From Salinarchaeum sp. Harcht-Bsk1 (GTDB taxonomy: Archaea; Halobacteriota; Halobacteria; Halobacteriales; Salinarchaeaceae), in the NCBI RefSeq assembly GCF_000403645.1, contig NC_021313.1, forward strand, positions 310,001-374,000: 64,000 bases of DNA, written 5' to 3'. Positions 48,772-58,308 of the stretch are shown here, piece by piece. The notes under the pieces were generated by a model, which saw nothing but the letters and a program-made list of their open reading frames with translations, searched no databases and was not told the origin of the DNA. Numbering within the stretch: position 1 is the stretch's first letter; each line of letters begins with the position of its first letter. A program made the position numbers and the translations under genes.

Positions 48772-49473
48772 CTAATCGGACGTCCCGGCAGCGACGGCCT
48801 CCTCGGTCTCGGAGGCTGCCTCCTCAGCAGCGGCTTCGGCCTTCTCTGCCGCTTCCTTCTTCGCCTTGATCTTCTTCATCCGGAAGATCTCCTCGCGTTC
48901 CTGTTCCTCGAGCTTCTGCTCGATGTACTCCTTGTTCTCGTGGAGTTCGGGCAGGAGCTTGAACTCCAGGGCGTTGACGCGGCGCTTGGTCTTCTCGATC
49001 TCGTCGAGCATCTTCTTCATCGCCGTCTCGACCTCTGCGGCGAGGATGATCGACTCGATCAGTTCTTCGTAGGCTGCCGCAGTTTCGTCGATGCGCGCGC
49101 TAGTGCCGAGGACGCCGTAGCCGCGCTGGTCGAGACTCTTCTGGACGCTGGAGGACTCGATCTGGGGCACGACGACGCCCATGATGTTCTTGGCCTCGGT
49201 CGTGATCTCCGGGTGGTCCTTGAGCGCGGACGCCGCCCCACGGACCGCGACGTCGCCCTCCATGGCGCGAGCCATGTCGATGGTCTGCTGGGCCTGCTCG
49301 TAGTCGGCCTCGACGTTCTCCCGAACGGACTGGGCCTGATCGAGGATCTCCTTGAACTCCATGATCAGCCCGTCGCGCTTCTTCTCGAGGGTGTCGTGCC
49401 CACGCTCGGAGAGCTCGATCCGGTCCTCAATCTCCATGAGGTTCTTCCGGGTGGGTTTGACGTCCTTGGCCAT
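48772..49473 (-). CDS. atpD: A-type ATP synthase subunit D
   Basis: 233 aa from [11 protein letters not shown] at 49473. Central-stalk coiled coil: [20 protein letters not shown] at the N-terminus and [20 protein letters not shown] near residue 160. The C-terminal extension is Lys/Ala/Glu-rich (about residues 195-233), typical of haloarchaea. It should rotate with F and C to couple proton flow to the A3B3 head. It is separated from atpB by about 4.3 kb holding four unrelated genes, so it probably needs its own promoter. Confidence 0.95.
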
Positions 49474-49582
49474 TGGCGGAGCCTTGCCCACGGATGGGGG
49501 TAGTCCTTACGATTGGTGGCGGGGGACGTGTGGCTCTGGAGGGTCGTAGGAACGGACCGCGTGGAAAGGAAGGCCGCGGCGA

Positions 49583-50263
49583 TCAGCGAGCGGATCGCCG
49601 GCGCACCGCAAGCAGTCCGCCCGCGACGAGGAGCGCGATCCCGGGGAGGACCGCCGAGGGTGCCAGCTGCCCGTCGCCACCGCCGCCGGACGTCGTCATC
49701 GTCACTTCAAATCCGGAGAGATCCGCTTCCGCCGACCACGTCGCTTGACCGTCCGCCTGCTCCGTGGGCGTCACCGACGTGTCGACGATCTCCTCGCCCT
49801 CCGGGGCCCGCACGACGAGGGGTCGGCCCGAATCGAAGCCGTCGTCAAAGGGCGCGGAGAGCACGAGTTCGTCGCCGTCAATGGCAGCGAGATTCGTCCA
49901 GGTCGCTGAGAGCCGGACGACCCCGACGCCGTCGCGTCGGTCGAACGTCGCCTCGACGTCCTGGATCGCCATCTCGCGGCCGGTCTCGTTGCTCACGCTT
50001 TCTGCGACGCCCCAGAGTCGGGCCTCGTATCTGGTGGAGAGGTTCTCCCGCTCGTCCTCGAGGTTGGCGAAGGATTGCTGCTGGGCGTCGTCTTCGAGGT
50101 CGTACGTGTAGACGGTGGTGACGATGGCGTCACCGTCCGCCTGCAAGTCGACGTTCACCCGCTCCTGAGGACGGTCCTGAGCAACCGCACCCGTCGCCCC
50201 GACCAGCGCGATCAGCGTTGCCACCGCGGCGAGCGTCGCGGCGGCGCGTAGCGTCGCTCGCAT
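49583..50263 (-). CDS. secreted protein with C-terminal membrane anchor (DUF7345-like)
   Basis: 226 aa. N-terminal signal (ATLAAVATLIALVGATGAVA), an extracytoplasmic beta-rich domain (VNVDLQADGDAIVTTVYTYD; RYEARLWGVAESVSN; VVRLSATWTNLAAIDGDEL), and a C-terminal hydrophobic segment with basic end (LPGIALLVAGGLLAVRRRSAR). The domain resembles the external part of the regulator at 52006 (EEFEARMTGVVESANG; WGVVTYTFRWEGFAATEGDGL). The start overlaps the stop of the upstream gene (TGATG), so the two are translationally coupled. Function unknown. Confidence 0.8.
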   Translation of the reverse strand: MRATLRAAATLAAVATLIALVGATGAVAQDRPQERVNVDLQADGDAIVTTVYTYDLEDDAQQQSFANLEDERENLSTRYEARLWGVAESVSNETGREMAIQDVEATFDRRDGVGVVRLSATWTNLAAIDGDELVLSAPFDDGFDSGRPLVVRAPEGEEIVDTSVTPTEQADGQATWSAEADLSGFEVTMTTSGGGGDGQLAPSAVLPGIALLVAGGLLAVRRRSAR

Positions 50264-51627
50264 CAGTCGTCGCTGTCGTCGCCGTCGTCCTCATCACTGT
50301 CCGAGTCGTCCGACGAGTCGTCGCTGTCGTCGCCGTCGTCCTCATCACTGTCCGAGTCGTCCGACGAGTCGTCGCTGTCGTCGCCGTCGTCCTCATCACT
50401 GCCCGAGTCGTCCGACGAGTCGTCGCTGTCGTCGCCCTCGAACTCCATCTCGAGTTCGCCCTCGCTGTCGCCGTGCTCGACCTCGACGTCGAACCCGTCT
50501 TCGCCGACCTGCACCGTCACGGTGCCGTTCTCGTCGGTTGTGCCGCCCGCACCGTCGTCTACCTCGACGTCGGCGCCAGCGACGGGGTTACCCTCGGCGT
50601 CGGTGACGCGGATCGTCACGGTGTCGTCCGTGGCGGGGTCGCCGTCGACCACGGTGATGGTGAGCTCGCCCTCGGACTCGTCGTCTTCCTCGTCGTCACC
50701 GTCGTCCTCGGCTTCGCGCTCGATCTCCTCCTCCAGCGAGAAGACCGCGTTCTCGCGAGCGTCGACGCTCACCTCTGCTTCCCCGCTCGAGGACGGGCCC
50801 TGGTACTCGAATTCGAACTCGTAGTACCCGTCGTCCTCGGTCTCGGCCTCGTCGAGGGTCCAGGTCCCGTTGTCGTCAGGCGAGGACAGCGCCGCCTCGG
50901 CCGTGGCCTGCGCCTCGCTCCGGTTCACCTCGAAGGTACCGTGCTCGGGCTCCTCGCCCTCGAACCCGCGGGAGTACTCGCCGTCCTCGGACTCGACCTC
51001 GACTTCGAGGCCGTTCTCGGTCTCGACGGAGAACTCGCCGTCGGACTGCCCGGTGAACTGCGCGAGCAGTGCGGCGGTGCCGCTTCCGGAGACCGACCGG
51101 AGCTGCTGACGGGCCTCCGCGACTTCGGCGGCGTTGTAGCCGGCAGCCTCCAGCGCGTCGGGCGAGGTCTGGGCCGCGGCGACCGAGACGCGGTCGAACC
51201 CGTTCTGGATGGCGTCAGCGCGGGCGTGGAGTACCGCGAGCCGTTGCCCGTACTCGGCCGCCGATAGTTCACCCTCGTCGTAGGCCATCGTCGCCGCCTC
51301 GTAGTCCGCGGCGATCTGGCCCGCCCGGTCCTGCAGCGTCGCGGAGAGGTTCGCGATCGCGGCCGCCCGCTCGGAGTCGTTCTCCGCGTCGAGCTCCGCC
51401 TCGAGCGACCCGACCTCCACGTCGTGGCGGACCTCCTCGTCGGTCACCTGGATGACCGTCGCGAGCTGCGCGCCAGTCGAGGCGTTGGTGGTCGCCGCAC
51501 CGTCGTTCGCCGAACTGTCCTGCGTGCCGACGCCCACATCAGCCGCACCCACGACGCCCACGATCGGGGCGAGCGCCACGAGTGCGACCAGCGCGAGCAG
51601 CACGGTGGTCGAGTTGCGCACTGACAT
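50263..51627 (-). CDS. secreted protein with helical module, Ig-like domain and Asp/Ser repeat tail (DUF7096-like)
   Basis: 454 aa. A signal sequence (VLLALVALVALAPIVGVVGA) leads into an alpha-helical module (about 50-170: ERAAAIANLSATLQDRAGQI, ...EGELSAAEYGQRLAVLHARA), then acidic regions, an Ig-like segment (NPVAGADVEVDDGAGGTTDE) and a Ser/Asp tail made of a 17-residue repeat (three copies). No C-terminal anchor is seen; attachment may be via the coupled downstream protein. TATA (tttac on the minus strand, 51653-51658) lies about 28 nt upstream of the start, and a phased repeat array just beyond it. A helical plus Ig-like relative is at 62559-63809. Confidence 0.8.
   Translation of the reverse strand: MSVRNSTTVLLALVALVALAPIVGVVGAADVGVGTQDSSANDGAATTNASTGAQLATVIQVTDEEVRHDVEVGSLEAELDAENDSERAAAIANLSATLQDRAGQIAADYEAATMAYDEGELSAAEYGQRLAVLHARADAIQNGFDRVSVAAAQTSPDALEAAGYNAAEVAEARQQLRSVSGSGTAALLAQFTGQSDGEFSVETENGLEVEVESEDGEYSRGFEGEEPEHGTFEVNRSEAQATAEAALSSPDDNGTWTLDEAETEDDGYYEFEFEYQGPSSSGEAEVSVDARENAVFSLEEEIEREAEDDGDDEEDDESEGELTITVVDGDPATDDTVTIRVTDAEGNPVAGADVEVDDGAGGTTDENGTVTVQVGEDGFDVEVEHGDSEGELEMEFEGDDSDDSSDDSGSDEDDGDDSDDSSDDSDSDEDDGDDSDDSSDDSDSDEDDGDDSDD
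50265..50432. repeat. 51-nt tandem repeat in the DUF7096-like gene
   Basis: Units start at 50265, 50316 and 50367, with a partial fourth from 50418, each beginning agtcgtcgctgtcgtcgccg. They differ at one base (tcactgtcc/tcactgccc). They encode the 17-residue Ser/Asp/Glu repeat DSDEDDGDDSDDSSDD plus one residue at the C-terminus. The length is a multiple of three, so copy-number change would alter tail length without frameshift. Confidence 0.9.
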
Positions 51628-51652
51628 CGATCACTCCTCTCCCCCGCTCCCT

Positions 51653-51658
51653 CGTAAA
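51653..51658 (-). promoter_or_regulatory. TATA element for the secreted-protein operon
   Basis: gtaaag on the plus strand reads CTTTAC on the minus strand, about 28 nt upstream of the ATG at 51627; leaderless transcription is expected. Confidence 0.55.
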
Positions 51659-51677
51659 GGGGGAAGACCCTCCCGGC

Positions 51678-51756
51678 CCGTTGCGGACCGTTGCGAACAG
51701 TTGTGGCTCGATTTTGGACCGTTGCACGGCTCGGCCGAACCGTTGCAGTCCGTTGT
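51678..51756. promoter_or_regulatory. phased CCGTTGC repeat array (candidate operator)
   Basis: CCGTTGC occurs at 51678, 51688, 51719 and 51740, with variants CAGTTGT at 51698 and CCGTTGT at 51750; a further TCGTTGC is at 51798. Start-to-start distances are 10, 10, 21, 21 and 10 bp, so sites lie on one face of the helix. The array begins about 20 bp beyond the TATA of the DUF7096-like gene, where an activator or repressor would act. It lies about 220-300 bp upstream of the divergent regulator gene. Confidence 0.7.
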
Positions 51757-52005
51757 GCGGGTGAAATCGAGGGGCCGCACCGGGGCTGGACTCGCACTCG
51801 TTGCGATTCGATTACACCCGCATGCACCGACCGAACGATCGTGAGCCGTCGAACCGTCGGAGTCCCGCTCGCGCTCACCGTTCGGCGCTCGCCCGCGAAA
51901 CGCGACCGCGACCCACCGCCCAACCGCGACGCGACACACAGCCCGACCACGACGCGCTGGCCGGGACCGGCCCCTTTATCAACGAGCCGCCGATTCCTAC
52001 CGCTA
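51757..52005. other. remainder of the divergent intergenic region
   Basis: No gene seen. A single TCGTTGC (51798-51804) and the TATA tttatc at 51975-51980, about 28 nt upstream of the regulator start at 52006, are the only elements noted. Frames crossing this stretch are GC-rich shadows with Arg-rich composition. Confidence 0.5.
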
Positions 52006-53169
52006 ATGCGACGCGGGGGTCCCAGGCTGCAAACCGTTCCGGCGTGCGCGGTCGTCCTCCTGTTGCTCGTGGCGCTCGGCGGTCCCGTCGCTGGCGGTTC
52101 CCTCGCTAGTGGTTCCGTCGCTGGTCTTCCGGCCGTCGGTACCGCTGCCGACGGTTCCACGCTCCCGCAGCACTCGCCAGCCTCCACGCTGGCCGCCCAA
52201 TCGGACGACGTCTCCTTCGTTTCCCTCCAGGACCAGCCGGAGGCCGACGCGACCGTGACGCGGATCGTCCTCCACGAGAACGGCTCCGCGATCTGGACGA
52301 TCGAGGTCCGCACGCGGCTCACCAGCGCCGAGGAGGTCGCGGCCTACGAGTCCTTCCAGGAGCGGTTCCGCTCGAACCGGAGCCGGTTCCGCGAGGAGTT
52401 CGAGGCGCGGATGACCGGCGTCGTGGAGAGCGCGAACGGCTCCCTCGACCGGCCGATGCGTGCGACGGCGTTCTCCGCGTCGACCAGCATCGAGGAGGCG
52501 CCCCAGCGGTGGGGCGTCGTCACGTACACCTTCCGGTGGGAGGGCTTCGCGGCGACGGAGGGGGACGGGCTGGTCGTCGGGGACGTCTTCGGTGGCAACT
52601 TCTTCATCGAGGAGAACAGCGTCCTCGAGTTCGTCCTCCCCGAGGGCCACGAGGTCGAGACCGTCTCGCCGTCCCCCGATAGCCGATCCGGCGAAACCAT
52701 GCAGTGGGAGGGTCCGGCCAGCTTCGGAGACGGCCAGCCCCGGGTTGTGACGACCACCGGCGACGACGGCCTCTCGCTGGTGTGGATTCTCGTCGCCGCG
52801 ATCGTTGTCCTGGCCGCACTCCTCGCACTCGCGATCGCGTGGCGCCGCGGGAGCATCGGCGGGCGGGCGGACGAGTCCGAAACTGCCGCAGCGTCCGCCG
52901 GCGACGAGCCCGAAGGCGGCGACGCCACGGCCGCAGAGCCCGGACCGCTGACCGACGAGGATCGCGTTCGGGAGGTGCTCGAGGCCCACGGCGGCCGGTG
53001 CAAGCAGTCCCAGATCGTCGAGGAGCTCGACTGGTCGAAGTCAAAGACCTCGCGGGTGCTCTCCCGGATGGCGGAGGAGAACCGGGTCGAGAAGCTCCGG
53101 ATCGGGCGCGAGAACGTGATCGAGCTGCCCGGGAAGGAGCGAGCGCCGACGGCAGACTTCGAAGAGTGA
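52006..53169 (+). CDS. membrane-spanning winged-HTH transcriptional regulator (DUF7345/DUF7343-like)
   Basis: 387 aa. A signal segment (VPACAVVLLLLVALGGPVAG), an external domain (about 65-245), one transmembrane helix (LVWILVAAIVVLAALLALAI, about 265-285), a cytoplasmic Glu/Asp/Ala linker and a C-terminal winged helix (VREVLEAHGGRCKQSQIVEE, then SKTSRVLSRMAEENRVEKLR). This is a one-component sensor in which signal domain and DNA-binding domain are joined through the membrane. The external domain resembles the secreted protein at 49583-50263. The TATA at 51975 supports the start. Likely controls the divergent operon via the CCGTTGC array (inference). Confidence 0.85.
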   Translation: MRRGGPRLQTVPACAVVLLLLVALGGPVAGGSLASGSVAGLPAVGTAADGSTLPQHSPASTLAAQSDDVSFVSLQDQPEADATVTRIVLHENGSAIWTIEVRTRLTSAEEVAAYESFQERFRSNRSRFREEFEARMTGVVESANGSLDRPMRATAFSASTSIEEAPQRWGVVTYTFRWEGFAATEGDGLVVGDVFGGNFFIEENSVLEFVLPEGHEVETVSPSPDSRSGETMQWEGPASFGDGQPRVVTTTGDDGLSLVWILVAAIVVLAALLALAIAWRRGSIGGRADESETAAASAGDEPEGGDATAAEPGPLTDEDRVREVLEAHGGRCKQSQIVEELDWSKSKTSRVLSRMAEENRVEKLRIGRENVIELPGKERAPTADFEE

Positions 53170-53193
53170 CGACCCGGTCGTCGCCCGGATCGC

Positions 53194-53409
53194 TTATCGG
53201 CGCCGCGACGTCGGTTCGCAGTCAGGGAGCCGCGAGTTGCTGTAGTCGAAGACGAGGTAGCCGAGCGGCCCGGCGAGCGCGAGCGAGGCGGCGGACTCGA
53301 CGAAGAGGTCGCTCCCGACGAGGAAGCGGAACACGACGAAATTGATCACCACCCACAGGAGGAGCGTGTAGGTGACGTACTCGCGCAGCGCCTCCGTTCG
53401 GCTTCGCAT
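53194..53409 (-). CDS. small two-helix membrane protein
   Basis: 71 aa from the second Met (53409), which is about 27 nt from the TATA on the minus strand (actataat, 53433-53440). Two hydrophobic segments (YVTYTLLLWVVINFVVFRFL and LFVESAASLALAGPLGYLVF) and a polar, Arg-ending C-terminus. Not recognised beyond haloarchaeal conservation. It is convergent with the regulator gene. Confidence 0.68.
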   Translation of the reverse strand: MRSRTEALREYVTYTLLLWVVINFVVFRFLVGSDLFVESAASLALAGPLGYLVFDYSNSRLPDCEPTSRRR

Positions 53410-53412
53410 CAC

Positions 53413-53723
53413 GCGAACGATTCACAGGGACCGTATTATAGTTTACTCTCGAGTAGCTCGCAGGAAAAACGGCATTATCAATCGTCCCCCACGGAGCTGG
53501 CTGGCGATTCTATCGGCTGATTTTTCCTTCCGACGAACTGGCCGCCGAACGGCCCGATGCCGGTCGACGGCGGGCCGCACCCGACGCCGGTGACTCGGCG
53601 ACCGACTGGCGGGCGTCGACGTCCACGCTATCGATCGGTGTCGCTGAAGAGAATCGACTCGAGGACGATCGCCGTCAGCATACGATCGAAACGAAAAAAA
53701 AAAAACCGACGACGGCGAACTCC
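53413..53723. other. intergenic region between atpB and the small membrane gene
   Basis: Contains the TATA for the minus gene at 53433-53440 and the T-run terminator of atpB at 53694-53705. No coding frame is supported. Confidence 0.55.
53694..53705 (-). terminator. T12 terminator after atpB
   Basis: Twelve consecutive A on the plus strand, i.e. T12 on the transcribed minus strand, 19 nt after the atpB stop. It probably ends the atpH-B transcript and isolates atpD. Confidence 0.75.
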
Positions 53724-55136
53724 TCAGTCCGCGGCGACTTCCTCGGCTGCGGACTCCTCGTAGTACTCGTCGATGAGCTCCTCGTCGATCCGGTTGAGCT
53801 CGTCGCGAGGCAACATCGAGAGCAGCTCCCAGCCGATGGTGAGCGTCTCCTCGATGTCGCGGTCAGTCGTGAAGCCCTGCTGGACGAACTCCTCCTCGAA
53901 GCGGTCCGCGAAGTCGAGGAAGCGGTTGTCCCGTTCGCTCAGTGCTTCGCGACCGACGATGTTCACGAGGTCGCGCAGGTCCTCGCCCTCCGCGTACGCC
54001 GCGTAGAGCTGGTCGGACACGTCGCCGTGGTCCTCACGGGTGAGGCCCTCGCCGATCCCGTCGTCCATCAGCCGTGAGAGGCTGGGCAAGACGTTGACCG
54101 GGGGCTCGATGCCCTGAGAGTTCAGGTCGGGGTCGACGATGATCTGCCCCTCCGTGATGTACCCGGTGAGGTCCGGGATCGGGTGGGTGATGTCGTCGGA
54201 CGGCATCGTGAGGATCGGAATCTGCGTGACAGACCCGTCCTCCCCATCGATCCGGCCCGCGCGCTCGTACAGCTGGGCGAGGTCGGTGTACATGTACCCG
54301 GGGTAGCCCCGGCGACCCGGGACCTCCTCGCGGGCGGCACCGATCTCGCGGAGCGCTTCACAGTAGTTCGTCATGTCCGTGAGGATGACGAGGACGTGGT
54401 AGTCCTTGTCGAAGGCCAGGTACTCCGCCGTGGTGAGCGCGAGTCGCGGCGTGACCGTCCGTTCGACTGCGGGGTCGTCCGCGAGGTTCATGAAGACGAC
54501 AGAGCGCTCGAGTGCCCCCGTGCGCTCGAAGTCCTGCATGAACTCGTTGGCCTCCTCCTGAGTGATCCCCATCGCGCCGAAGATCACTGCGAACTCGGAG
54601 TCGCCGTCACCCTCGCCGTCGGCCTCCTCCGGCACGCTGGCCTGCCGCGCGACCTGAAGCGCCAGGTCGTTGTGGGGCTGACCGGAGCTGGAGAAGATCG
54701 GCAGCTTCTGGCCGCGAACCAGCGTGTTCATGCCGTCGATGGCGGACACGCCGGTCTGGATGAACTCCTCGGGGTACTCCCGGGAGTACGGGTTGATCGC
54801 CTCGCCGACGATGTCGCGGCGCTCGTCGGGGACGATGTCGGGGCCGCCGTCGATCGGTCGGCCGGAACCGTCGAGCACCCGTCCGAGGAGGTCCTCGGTG
54901 ACGGGCATCTTCATGGTCTCGCCGAGGAAGCGAACGGAGGCCTTGCGGTTGATGCCCTCCGTGCCCTCGAACACCTGGATCGCCACGAGGTCCGTGCTGC
55001 TCTCGAGGACCTGGCCGCGCTTGGTCTCGCCTTCCGGTGTCTCGATCTCGACGATCTCGTCGTAGCCGATCGGCTCGTCGACCTCCGCGAAGACCAGCGG
55101 TCCGCTGATCTCGGTGATCGTCTGGTATTCCTTCAT
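53724..55136 (-). CDS. atpB: A-type ATP synthase subunit B
   Basis: 470 aa from [16 protein letters not shown] at 55136. The regulatory, non-catalytic head subunit: the P-loop position reads [18 protein letters not shown], not a Walker [29 protein letters not shown] and [14 protein letters not shown] are conserved. The start codon is 2 nt upstream of the atpA stop region (next gene in the operon), and the long frame to 55520 is not used. Confidence 0.95.
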
Positions 55137-55138
55137 GG

Positions 55139-56908
<1,770 letters not shown>

Positions 56909-56914
56909 AGTGTG

Positions 56915-57232
56915 TTAGTCCATCAGGTCGATACCGATGGCTCGTTTGATCTGGTCGCGCAGCGCGCCGCCGCCCGCATCACCGCCGATGGTGACGACGA
57001 CCGGTTCGACGCTCGTCTCGACGGCTTCCCGCACGTCCCGCGAGAGGTACTCGAGGTCCTCCTGGTGCATGACGACGATGCCGACGCCGTCGTCGGCGAG
57101 CGTGTCCTCGACGGCGTCGTCGAGGTCGGACTCCTTCTTGTCGTCGGGGACGTTCGCGAACCGTCGAATGCCAGCGAGCCGGAAGCCGGTCGTGAACTCG
57201 GGGCTGCCGATCACAGCGATCTCCTGGCTCAT
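56915..57232 (-). CDS. atpF: A-type ATP synthase subunit F
   Basis: 105 aa. EIAVIGSPEFTTGFRLAGIR is the diagnostic N-terminus, then DDGVGIVVMHQEDLEYL. Central-stalk subunit that binds D. Overlaps atpC by 4 nt (start within the atpC stop region) and ends 6 nt before atpA. Confidence 0.94.
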   Translation of the reverse strand: MSQEIAVIGSPEFTTGFRLAGIRRFANVPDDKKESDLDDAVEDTLADDGVGIVVMHQEDLEYLSRDVREAVETSVEPVVVTIGGDAGGGALRDQIKRAIGIDLMD

Positions 57233-58308
57233 AGGATCACCAGCTCGTCTTCGATCTGTTGCTGGTCGAGGCCGACCTCCTTGCCCCGGGCGATCGCGCG
57301 GATGTTCTCGACCTCGCGAGTCTTCGCGAGGACGTAGGACATGACCGCCGTGATCGATACGGGGTAGACGTGTGAGAGGTGGTCAGTGTATTCGAGCAGC
57401 GCCGCGTCGAGCGCGTGTTCGAACTGGATGAGGCTGTCGGCGTCTCGCAGCCCGTCGAGAGCTGTTGAGAGCTGGTCGCCGTAGTCACTCTCGCGGAGCA
57501 ACTCGACGAGCTGGTCGAGGTCGCCCCCGACCGCACGGAGTTCGTCAGCGCCGAACAGCTCGCCGCCCTCGATTGCGTACTCTTCCGGATCGATGTTTGC
57601 GCCACTGCGGGCGACCCGCAGTGCGTTCCGCGCGTTGAGGAAGTCGATCTCGGCGACGAGGAACTCCTCGTACAGCGCAGTCGGCCCCTCGCGCTGCTGG
57701 CCCTTCTCGACGCCGGCCAGCAGGTCGGAGTAGAACGCGCGGTCGACGGCATTCTCGAGTGGAACCAGCACGTCACGGCTCTCGAACTCGTCGTAGGCCG
57801 CTTCGAGTGGTTCGCCGAAGATCGTTCCCTCGAGCGTCTCGACGATTTCCTCGATCGAGTCGGCTTCGACGATCCGGTCGAGGGTCGCGTCGTCGAGTGC
57901 GCCGGCCTGTATCAGGTCGACCCTGATCTCGTCGGGCGACGCGCCCGAGTAGACGCCACGGATGGCGGTTTTTACGTTCCAGGCGTCATAGCGCCGCAGG
58001 AACTTCGCGATCAGCTCGTGGAGTTCGCCCTCCGCCCACCGAAGGAGGTCGTCGAAGTGCTTCGCGAGGTTTCGGTTGAGTGCGTACTCGATGAGGTCCA
58101 CCCCGTCGTGGCGGGACGCGAGTGCGTTGATCTCCGTCTCGTACTCGGACTCCTCCATGAAGCGGGCGATGCCGCCAGGGCCCATGCGGACGAGCTTCCG
58201 ATAGTCCTCGTCGTCGAACAGCGCCGCACGACGCGACCGGACGCGGGCGTTGACGAACTCGGGGTTCGAGCTGCCCGTGGAGTCGCGAGTCGTGCTGGTT
58301 GGACTCAT
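57229..58308 (-). CDS. atpC: A-type ATP synthase subunit C
   Basis: 359 aa. Three repeated helical domains of the V/A-type C (d) subunit: VNARVRSRRAALFDDEDYRK at the N-terminus, AEGELHELIAKFLRRYDAWN, and ISITAVMSYVLAKTREVENI near the end. It sits as a socket between the central stalk and the membrane rotor. Overlaps atpE by 4 nt. Confidence 0.93.
   Translation of the reverse strand: MSPTSTTRDSTGSSNPEFVNARVRSRRAALFDDEDYRKLVRMGPGGIARFMEESEYETEINALASRHDGVDLIEYALNRNLAKHFDDLLRWAEGELHELIAKFLRRYDAWNVKTAIRGVYSGASPDEIRVDLIQAGALDDATLDRIVEADSIEEIVETLEGTIFGEPLEAAYDEFESRDVLVPLENAVDRAFYSDLLAGVEKGQQREGPTALYEEFLVAEIDFLNARNALRVARSGANIDPEEYAIEGGELFGADELRAVGGDLDQLVELLRESDYGDQLSTALDGLRDADSLIQFEHALDAALLEYTDHLSHVYPVSITAVMSYVLAKTREVENIRAIARGKEVGLDQQQIEDELVIL

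Follow-up and report, generated by a model that had tools for sequence, protein, structure and literature searches.

A short array of direct repeats lies between two divergent genes of the archaeon Salinarchaeum sp. Harcht-Bsk1, one for a predicted membrane protein with a helix-turn-helix (HTH) domain (P1) and one for a secreted protein (P2) that is followed by a third gene (P3). The question raised by this locus is whether the repeats are more than a local curiosity and, if so, which protein reads them and how. The window considered here is the whole stretch of 64,000 nucleotides that was analyzed, positions 310001–374000 of a genome that consists of one contig of 3,255,260 bases (NC_021313.1); coordinates refer to the window unless stated otherwise. 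The array is real, which is settled by the conservation of its phasing in 54 distinct orthologous regions, and it is quite likely to be the operator of the P2-P3 operon, bound by the divergently encoded P1.

Sites and genes in the window

The earlier note had described six CCGTTGC-type sites spaced in multiples of about 10.5 bp, an arrangement that it judged hard to explain by chance. All six sites, of the form C[CA]GTTG[CT], are found on the plus strand between 51678 and 51756, with their TT cores on the strand opposite to P2. Four copies are exact CCGTTGC (51678, 51688, 51719, and 51740), CCGTTGT at 51750 differs by one change, and CAGTTGT at 51698 differs by two. The steps between sites are 10, 10, 21, 21, and 10 bp, and the described spacing is off by no more than about 1.5 bp across 72 bp. 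Inside the first 21-bp gap, CGATTTTGGA near 51709 forms a weak additional slot, for which the unit model places a weak extra unit in the array register (TCGATTTTGGA, 51708–51718, plus strand, register +60 from the TATA).

Chance or a compositional artefact retains only a negligible probability as the origin of this arrangement. Among 200 dinucleotide shuffles of the window, the count of C[CA]GTTG[CT] sites per 79 bp never exceeded two, a value reached in 40 of the 200, so that three sites in 79 bp occurred in 0/200 against the six observed. The motif-free 10/21-bp lag score is likewise highest at the array (19, with 14 as the top of 100 shuffles), although coding stretches of the window reach 17, a point on the side of an artefact that keeps this score from being decisive alone. 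The recurrence of the phased array in 54 diverged regions, detailed below, upholds the earlier judgment. A search of the whole genome with CCGTTGYNNNCCGTTGY returned two matches, both in this array, and none for the backwards control.

The TATA-like element of P2, the best-scoring nonamer of the putative promoter (51652–51660, minus strand; the plus strand reads TCGTAAAGG), lies about 20 bp downstream of the start of the array. P2 (50263–51627, minus strand) is a secreted, DUF7096-like protein (Pfam, 28.0 bits; cut-off 27) with an acidic repeat tail. About three copies of a 51-bp repeat, recognized by eye at 50266–50440, encode 17 Ser/Asp-rich residues each at its C-terminus. P3 (49583–50263, minus strand) is a DUF7345 protein (78.6 bits) with a C-terminal hydrophobic segment, and because it overlaps the end of P2, the two genes probably form one operon.

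P1 (52006–53169, plus strand) combines a DUF7345 ectodomain, a transmembrane (TM) helix, and a C-terminal DUF7343 winged HTH on the basis of Pfam and AlphaFold, and a likely TATA element of its own, CTTTAT, is read at 51974–51979 on the plus strand. The AlphaFold model (mean pLDDT 79.4) places the TM helix at residues 255–282 and the winged HTH at residues 315–375; the former residues are hydrophobic in sequence and are followed by WRRG, the assignment drawing on model and sequence. Both domains score above their gathering thresholds (DUF7345, PF24036, 98.2 bits, cut-off 27.5; DUF7343, PF24034, 101.5 bits, cut-off 27.6), which assigns P1 to the DUF7345-DUF7343 protein family. HTH_IclR and MarR_2 match P1 with 20.2 and 20.1 bits, both under their cut-offs, while the closest structural matches of its HTH are MarR-type and Zalpha domains (Z about 10). 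FMO proteins were set aside as a likeness of the ectodomain at Foldseek TM-scores below 0.2. With a predicted DNA-binding domain and at least one predicted TM region, P1 is a candidate transmembrane transcription regulator in the broad sense given in an excerpt of PMC10269533.

On the minus strand, P2 and P3 are followed by the gene for the ATP synthase D subunit, and P1 on the plus strand is followed by minus-strand genes of the same ATPase; the trio thus sits inside an ATPase gene neighborhood (48772–58308). It also lies beside atpB homologs in several Halorubrum-type loci; most other loci lack this neighborhood, as far as their flanks extend. One locus of Halorubrum alkaliphilum (L125, 3001–3141) holds only a P1 remnant (residues 328–374) between atpD and atpB homologs, with no P2, as if this ATPase neighborhood had lost the trio by deletion.

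Conservation and register of the array

Homologs of P1 occur in 190 of the 392 genomes of the order (E ≤ 1e-40) and those of P2 in 51 of the 392 (E ≤ 1e-15). The distribution of P2 is patchy, since one genome of the same genus (G001) and one of the same family (G002) contain no P2 at E ≤ 1e-15. Hosts among the named genomes include Halorubrum species, Haloferax marinum, Natronorubrum thiooxidans, Halobaculum gomorrense, and Natrinema salsiterrestre. The P2 set comprises 108 loci, 51 of them duplicates and 57 distinct, in which P1 is mostly divergent; when genome contigs were scanned, P1 alone as query gave no loci and an alignment as query gave 39. Lag, unit, and register tests cover 54 of the 57 distinct regions. 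The other three (L090, L066, and L055) were omitted because of a misplaced start codon or a cut upstream region; a chain search finds a five-unit array in L090 and none in L066 and L055.

The earlier note had proposed a search of homologous loci and taken absence of the array there as evidence against its reading; arrays are present at orthologous loci. Within the 54 haloarchaeal regions, lag 10 accounts for 106 TT[GT]C pairs on the same strand, where 200 shuffles lead one to expect 1.1 (sd 1.0). Other high lags are 20 (53 pairs), 21 (14), 30–32 (17, 19, and 11), and 40–42 (10, 18, and 13), most of the remaining lags being near chance, and a motif-free count at lag 10 reaches 368 vs 14.0. The cores upstream of P2 share one orientation, 228 lying on the favored strand and 42 on the opposite one. 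The unit model recovers at least three units in 51 of the 54 regions and two units in L020, L064, and L118. The z-scores and Rayleigh values that accompany these counts are inflated by the kinship of the genomes.

The units are in phase with one another and with the core promoter. With the first base of the TATA-like nonamer as reference, their cores in the window are at 29, 39, 49, 60, 70, 91, and 101, and many loci have cores at 29, 39, and 49, then at about 60 or a gap, then at about 70, 80, and 90. Some loci with a plainly mis-called TATA (e.g., L020, L027, L043, L054, L108, and L111) were retained as noise.

The assignment of the array to the secreted-protein operon is borne out by loci in which the genes have separated, since the array stays with P2 where the HTH gene lies elsewhere. 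P1 and P2 are 1–2 kb apart in L161 (genome G168) and L100 (Haloquadratum sp. J07HQX50), with the array at P2; in L088 the two genes are in tandem, and the array is immediately upstream of P2. Two genomes, G250 and G298, encode the P1 orthologue elsewhere in the genome (a split hit in G298, hence probable there). Their P2 loci (L158 and L159) carry an array that was recognized by eye after a stricter chain search had missed it, and the P1 promoters of the same genomes (L165 and L167) have no array. A role of the array as a component of P1's own promoter was rejected because the array follows P2 when the genes separate. Three genomes of genus g21 have degenerate GTTTG units, again seen by eye, at a 31%-identical P2 (L155–L157); their best P1 relatives carry a KVSMLLS helix, and a clear P1 of the main class (class A below) is missing.

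A three-unit pattern, TTKCRN5TTKCRN5TTKC, matches in 43 of the 51 P2 genomes. Among the 73 matches listed, 44, spread over 34 genomes, are found up to 420 bp upstream of a P2 hit and 29 elsewhere, the latter to be compared with a summed 24 for the backwards control; 51 genomes without P2 give 29 matches vs 39 in the control. A broad regulon was rejected, since the pattern is near control elsewhere in P2 genomes and below control in genomes without P2, and the circuit looks local. On the window's own array this strict triplet has no match (one in the control), because the steps there run 10, 10, 21, 21, and 10 with GTTGT at the third site.

Recognition helices and the proposed operator of P1

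Three classes of HTH recognition motif are distinguished: A, B (WT[DE]AKTS[QK]V), and C (KVSMLLS or KVSQLLS). The 57 trio loci make up class A, in which position 7 is always Arg (helix positions are numbered from the residue after the Trp). Position 2 is Lys, as in the SKSKTSRV helix of P1, or Ala, and the base before the TT core changes with it: G in 0.76 of 91 units under Lys helices and T in 0.59 of 122 units under Ala helices. A Lys facing G would fit ordinary base recognition. The share of TTGC by locus also differs between the two kinds of helix (0.82 vs 0.41; Mann-Whitney p 2e-6, not tree-corrected). Helix and base are concordant in 46 of the 48 loci called on both sides (18 K-G, 28 A-T, and 0 K-T), the two discordant loci, L101 and L067, both being A-G; the other 9 of the 57 rows have no call on one or both sides. 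Parsimony on the ectodomain tree requires three helix-residue changes and five base changes, and a model of dependent evolution beats independence (LR 15.5, 4 df, p 0.0037) for a helix position that was picked after viewing the alignments. The covariation rests on few events, as K and A interchange only three times on the tree. The neighboring membrane HTH protein had been named earlier as the obvious candidate regulator, and this covariation of its recognition helix with the array sequence supports the choice: judged from sequence, P1 is the best candidate binder.

The array is probably the operator of a membrane-tethered one-component regulator, itself probably an activator. P1 would present its cytoplasmic MarR/IclR-like winged HTH at the inner end of one TM helix, with the DUF7345 sensor domain outside. 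Several membrane P1 molecules would each occupy one 10-bp unit, head to tail and presumably cooperatively, on the DNA face that points to the membrane. A membrane-held HTH would reach DNA only from the membrane side, and molecules placed side by side would need a one-faced strip. Bound P1 would then, most likely, help TFB/TBP and RNA polymerase to load, given the upstream position of the array and its fixed helical register relative to the P2 TATA box. A probable role of the circuit is to tune a surface layer or complex to whatever P1 senses outside, because P3 shares the ectodomain family of P1 and P2 is secreted; P3 could compete for or share P1's ligand.

MarR-type winged HTH proteins are often repressors, and the P1 HTH matches the MarR fold. 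A filament of P1 over the array might accordingly block TFB/TBP, or hold the promoter at the membrane until a signal arrives, a reading for which the short distance of only about 20 bp between array and TATA also speaks but which is rather unlikely. Against it, the array lies upstream of the TATA and covers neither TATA nor start in the register-tested loci, and the precedent for a membrane-bound regulator in archaea, ArnR, is an activator whose boxes lie at −43 to −84 according to an excerpt of PMC6396743. Activation is modestly favored by this analogy of position, that is, placement upstream of BRE/TATA as in the activator ArnR.

It is less likely still that the array serves a different, probably soluble, regulator encoded elsewhere, with P1 a mere neighbor. 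Such a protein would suit the g21 genomes, which keep a degenerate array without a clear class A P1, as well as the unlinked P1 of G250 and G298, and the element could have been inherited along with the P2 orthologues. However, the P1 recognition helix covaries with the unit, a P1 orthologue persists elsewhere in G250 and probably in G298, and a paralogous HTH class accompanies another unit. An effect of DNA shape, by flexible or bent steps in phase, or of chromatin proteins, with no sequence-specific regulator, is compatible with helical phasing alone but is very improbable, since a specific sequence and a single orientation are maintained among the units and their sequence follows the helix class.

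An activating, membrane-held P1 has partial counterparts among known systems. ArnR and ArnR1 of Sulfolobus acidocaldarius are membrane-bound one-component activators that require two sites together for in vitro binding (PMC6396743, excerpt). They resemble the P1 system as archaeal membrane-anchored HTH proteins with sites directly upstream of BRE/TATA, but their HTH is described there as N-terminal, combined with HAMP-like and sensor domains and with two TM helices at the C-terminus, and their sites are inverted repeats (TCGAC-N5-GTCGA) in contrast to the 10-bp direct-repeat strip found here. Bacterial transmembrane activators of the ToxR type, as excerpted from PMC8517210, share with P1 an extracytoplasmic sensor, one membrane-spanning region, and a cytoplasmic winged HTH, and the ToxR operator TNAAA-N5-TNAAA is, like this array, a direct repeat with a 10-bp step. 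Their HTH is OmpR-type and N-terminal, whereas that of P1 is MarR/IclR-like and C-terminal, and the strips here have up to seven units at an archaeal TATA promoter. By Pfam and the model, P1 departs from the ArnR layout (N-terminal HTH, two C-terminal TM helices) as well as from that of ToxR, its HTH being C-terminal to the TM helix and no OmpR-type Pfam domain being present. By domain layout the P1 system therefore belongs to neither family, and the common 10-bp step is a likeness of operators, not kinship. EarA of Methanococcus maripaludis is another archaeal winged-HTH activator (PMC5512572, PMC6396743, PMC13286277), for which removal of its four binding sites abolishes fla promoter function (PMC6396743); a membrane tether is not part of its description in the excerpts of these sources.

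How membrane-held regulators act on promoters is poorly understood (PMC10269533, excerpt), and a one-faced operator that is conserved and whose helix-to-base code can be read offers a direct handle on their action in archaea. Three domains, DUF7343, DUF7345, and DUF7096, gain a hypothesis of function; searches of open-license literature found no paper naming them, and those on haloarchaeal regulators with direct repeats found none on the P1, P2, or P3 domains.

Paralogous arrays

Class B proteins belong to a paralogous set, P1b-P2b-P3b, mostly in tandem, and this genome holds both systems, its one B set (L007) lying near contig position 1,736,700. The B system has its own 10-bp array in L079, L007, and 19 further loci. 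At these 21 P2b loci, selected by P2b homology and not by array, pair counts upstream of P2b are 72 vs 5.5 at lag 10 and 29 vs 4.5 at lag 20. The unit, CCGGATTAAG, is unlike that of class A. It is mostly GATTAA/GATCAA at the 13 loci with Gln and mostly GTTTTC/GTTCAA at the 8 with Lys, the hexamers having been chosen after looking. The difference between A and B units is weak evidence by itself, as arrays and genes of the P1b/P2b loci may have been inherited together.

These two systems may tentatively be viewed as parts of a haloarchaeal family of membrane-tethered regulators with one-faced operators of 3–7 units, 10-bp steps, and a fixed TATA register, in which DNA would run along the membrane, clamped from one side by several regulators. 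The A and B circuits would be kept apart by a helix code, with Arg/TTGC and Gln/GATTAA at position 7 and, at position 2, Lys with G and Ala with T before the core.

Class C paralogues have no convincing arrays nearby by a lag score that also rises in coding DNA and that ranked known B arrays poorly (L075 and L078). Four of the 22 loci in the class C set have B-type helices (L015, L047, L086, and L183), and L047 has a B-like array. One class C paralogue of P1 (helix WSNAKVSQLLS) lies at contig positions 374051–375190, starting about 50 bp past the window end, with no array seen nearby.

Genes for DUF7344 proteins are suggestive of a further array class. At their 31 loci the lag-10 count is 33 where mononucleotide shuffles give 5.8, other lags also being high, and it drops to 15 without three g21 loci. 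In these three (L232, L233, and L234), about 3.0 kb in, four-unit TTTC arrays with 10-bp steps directly precede the TATA of a DUF7344 gene, whose product has hydrophobic helices at its C-terminus and is likely another membrane HTH protein. Other DUF7344 genes (e.g., L250, L252, and L265) have similar, less regular GTTGC units.
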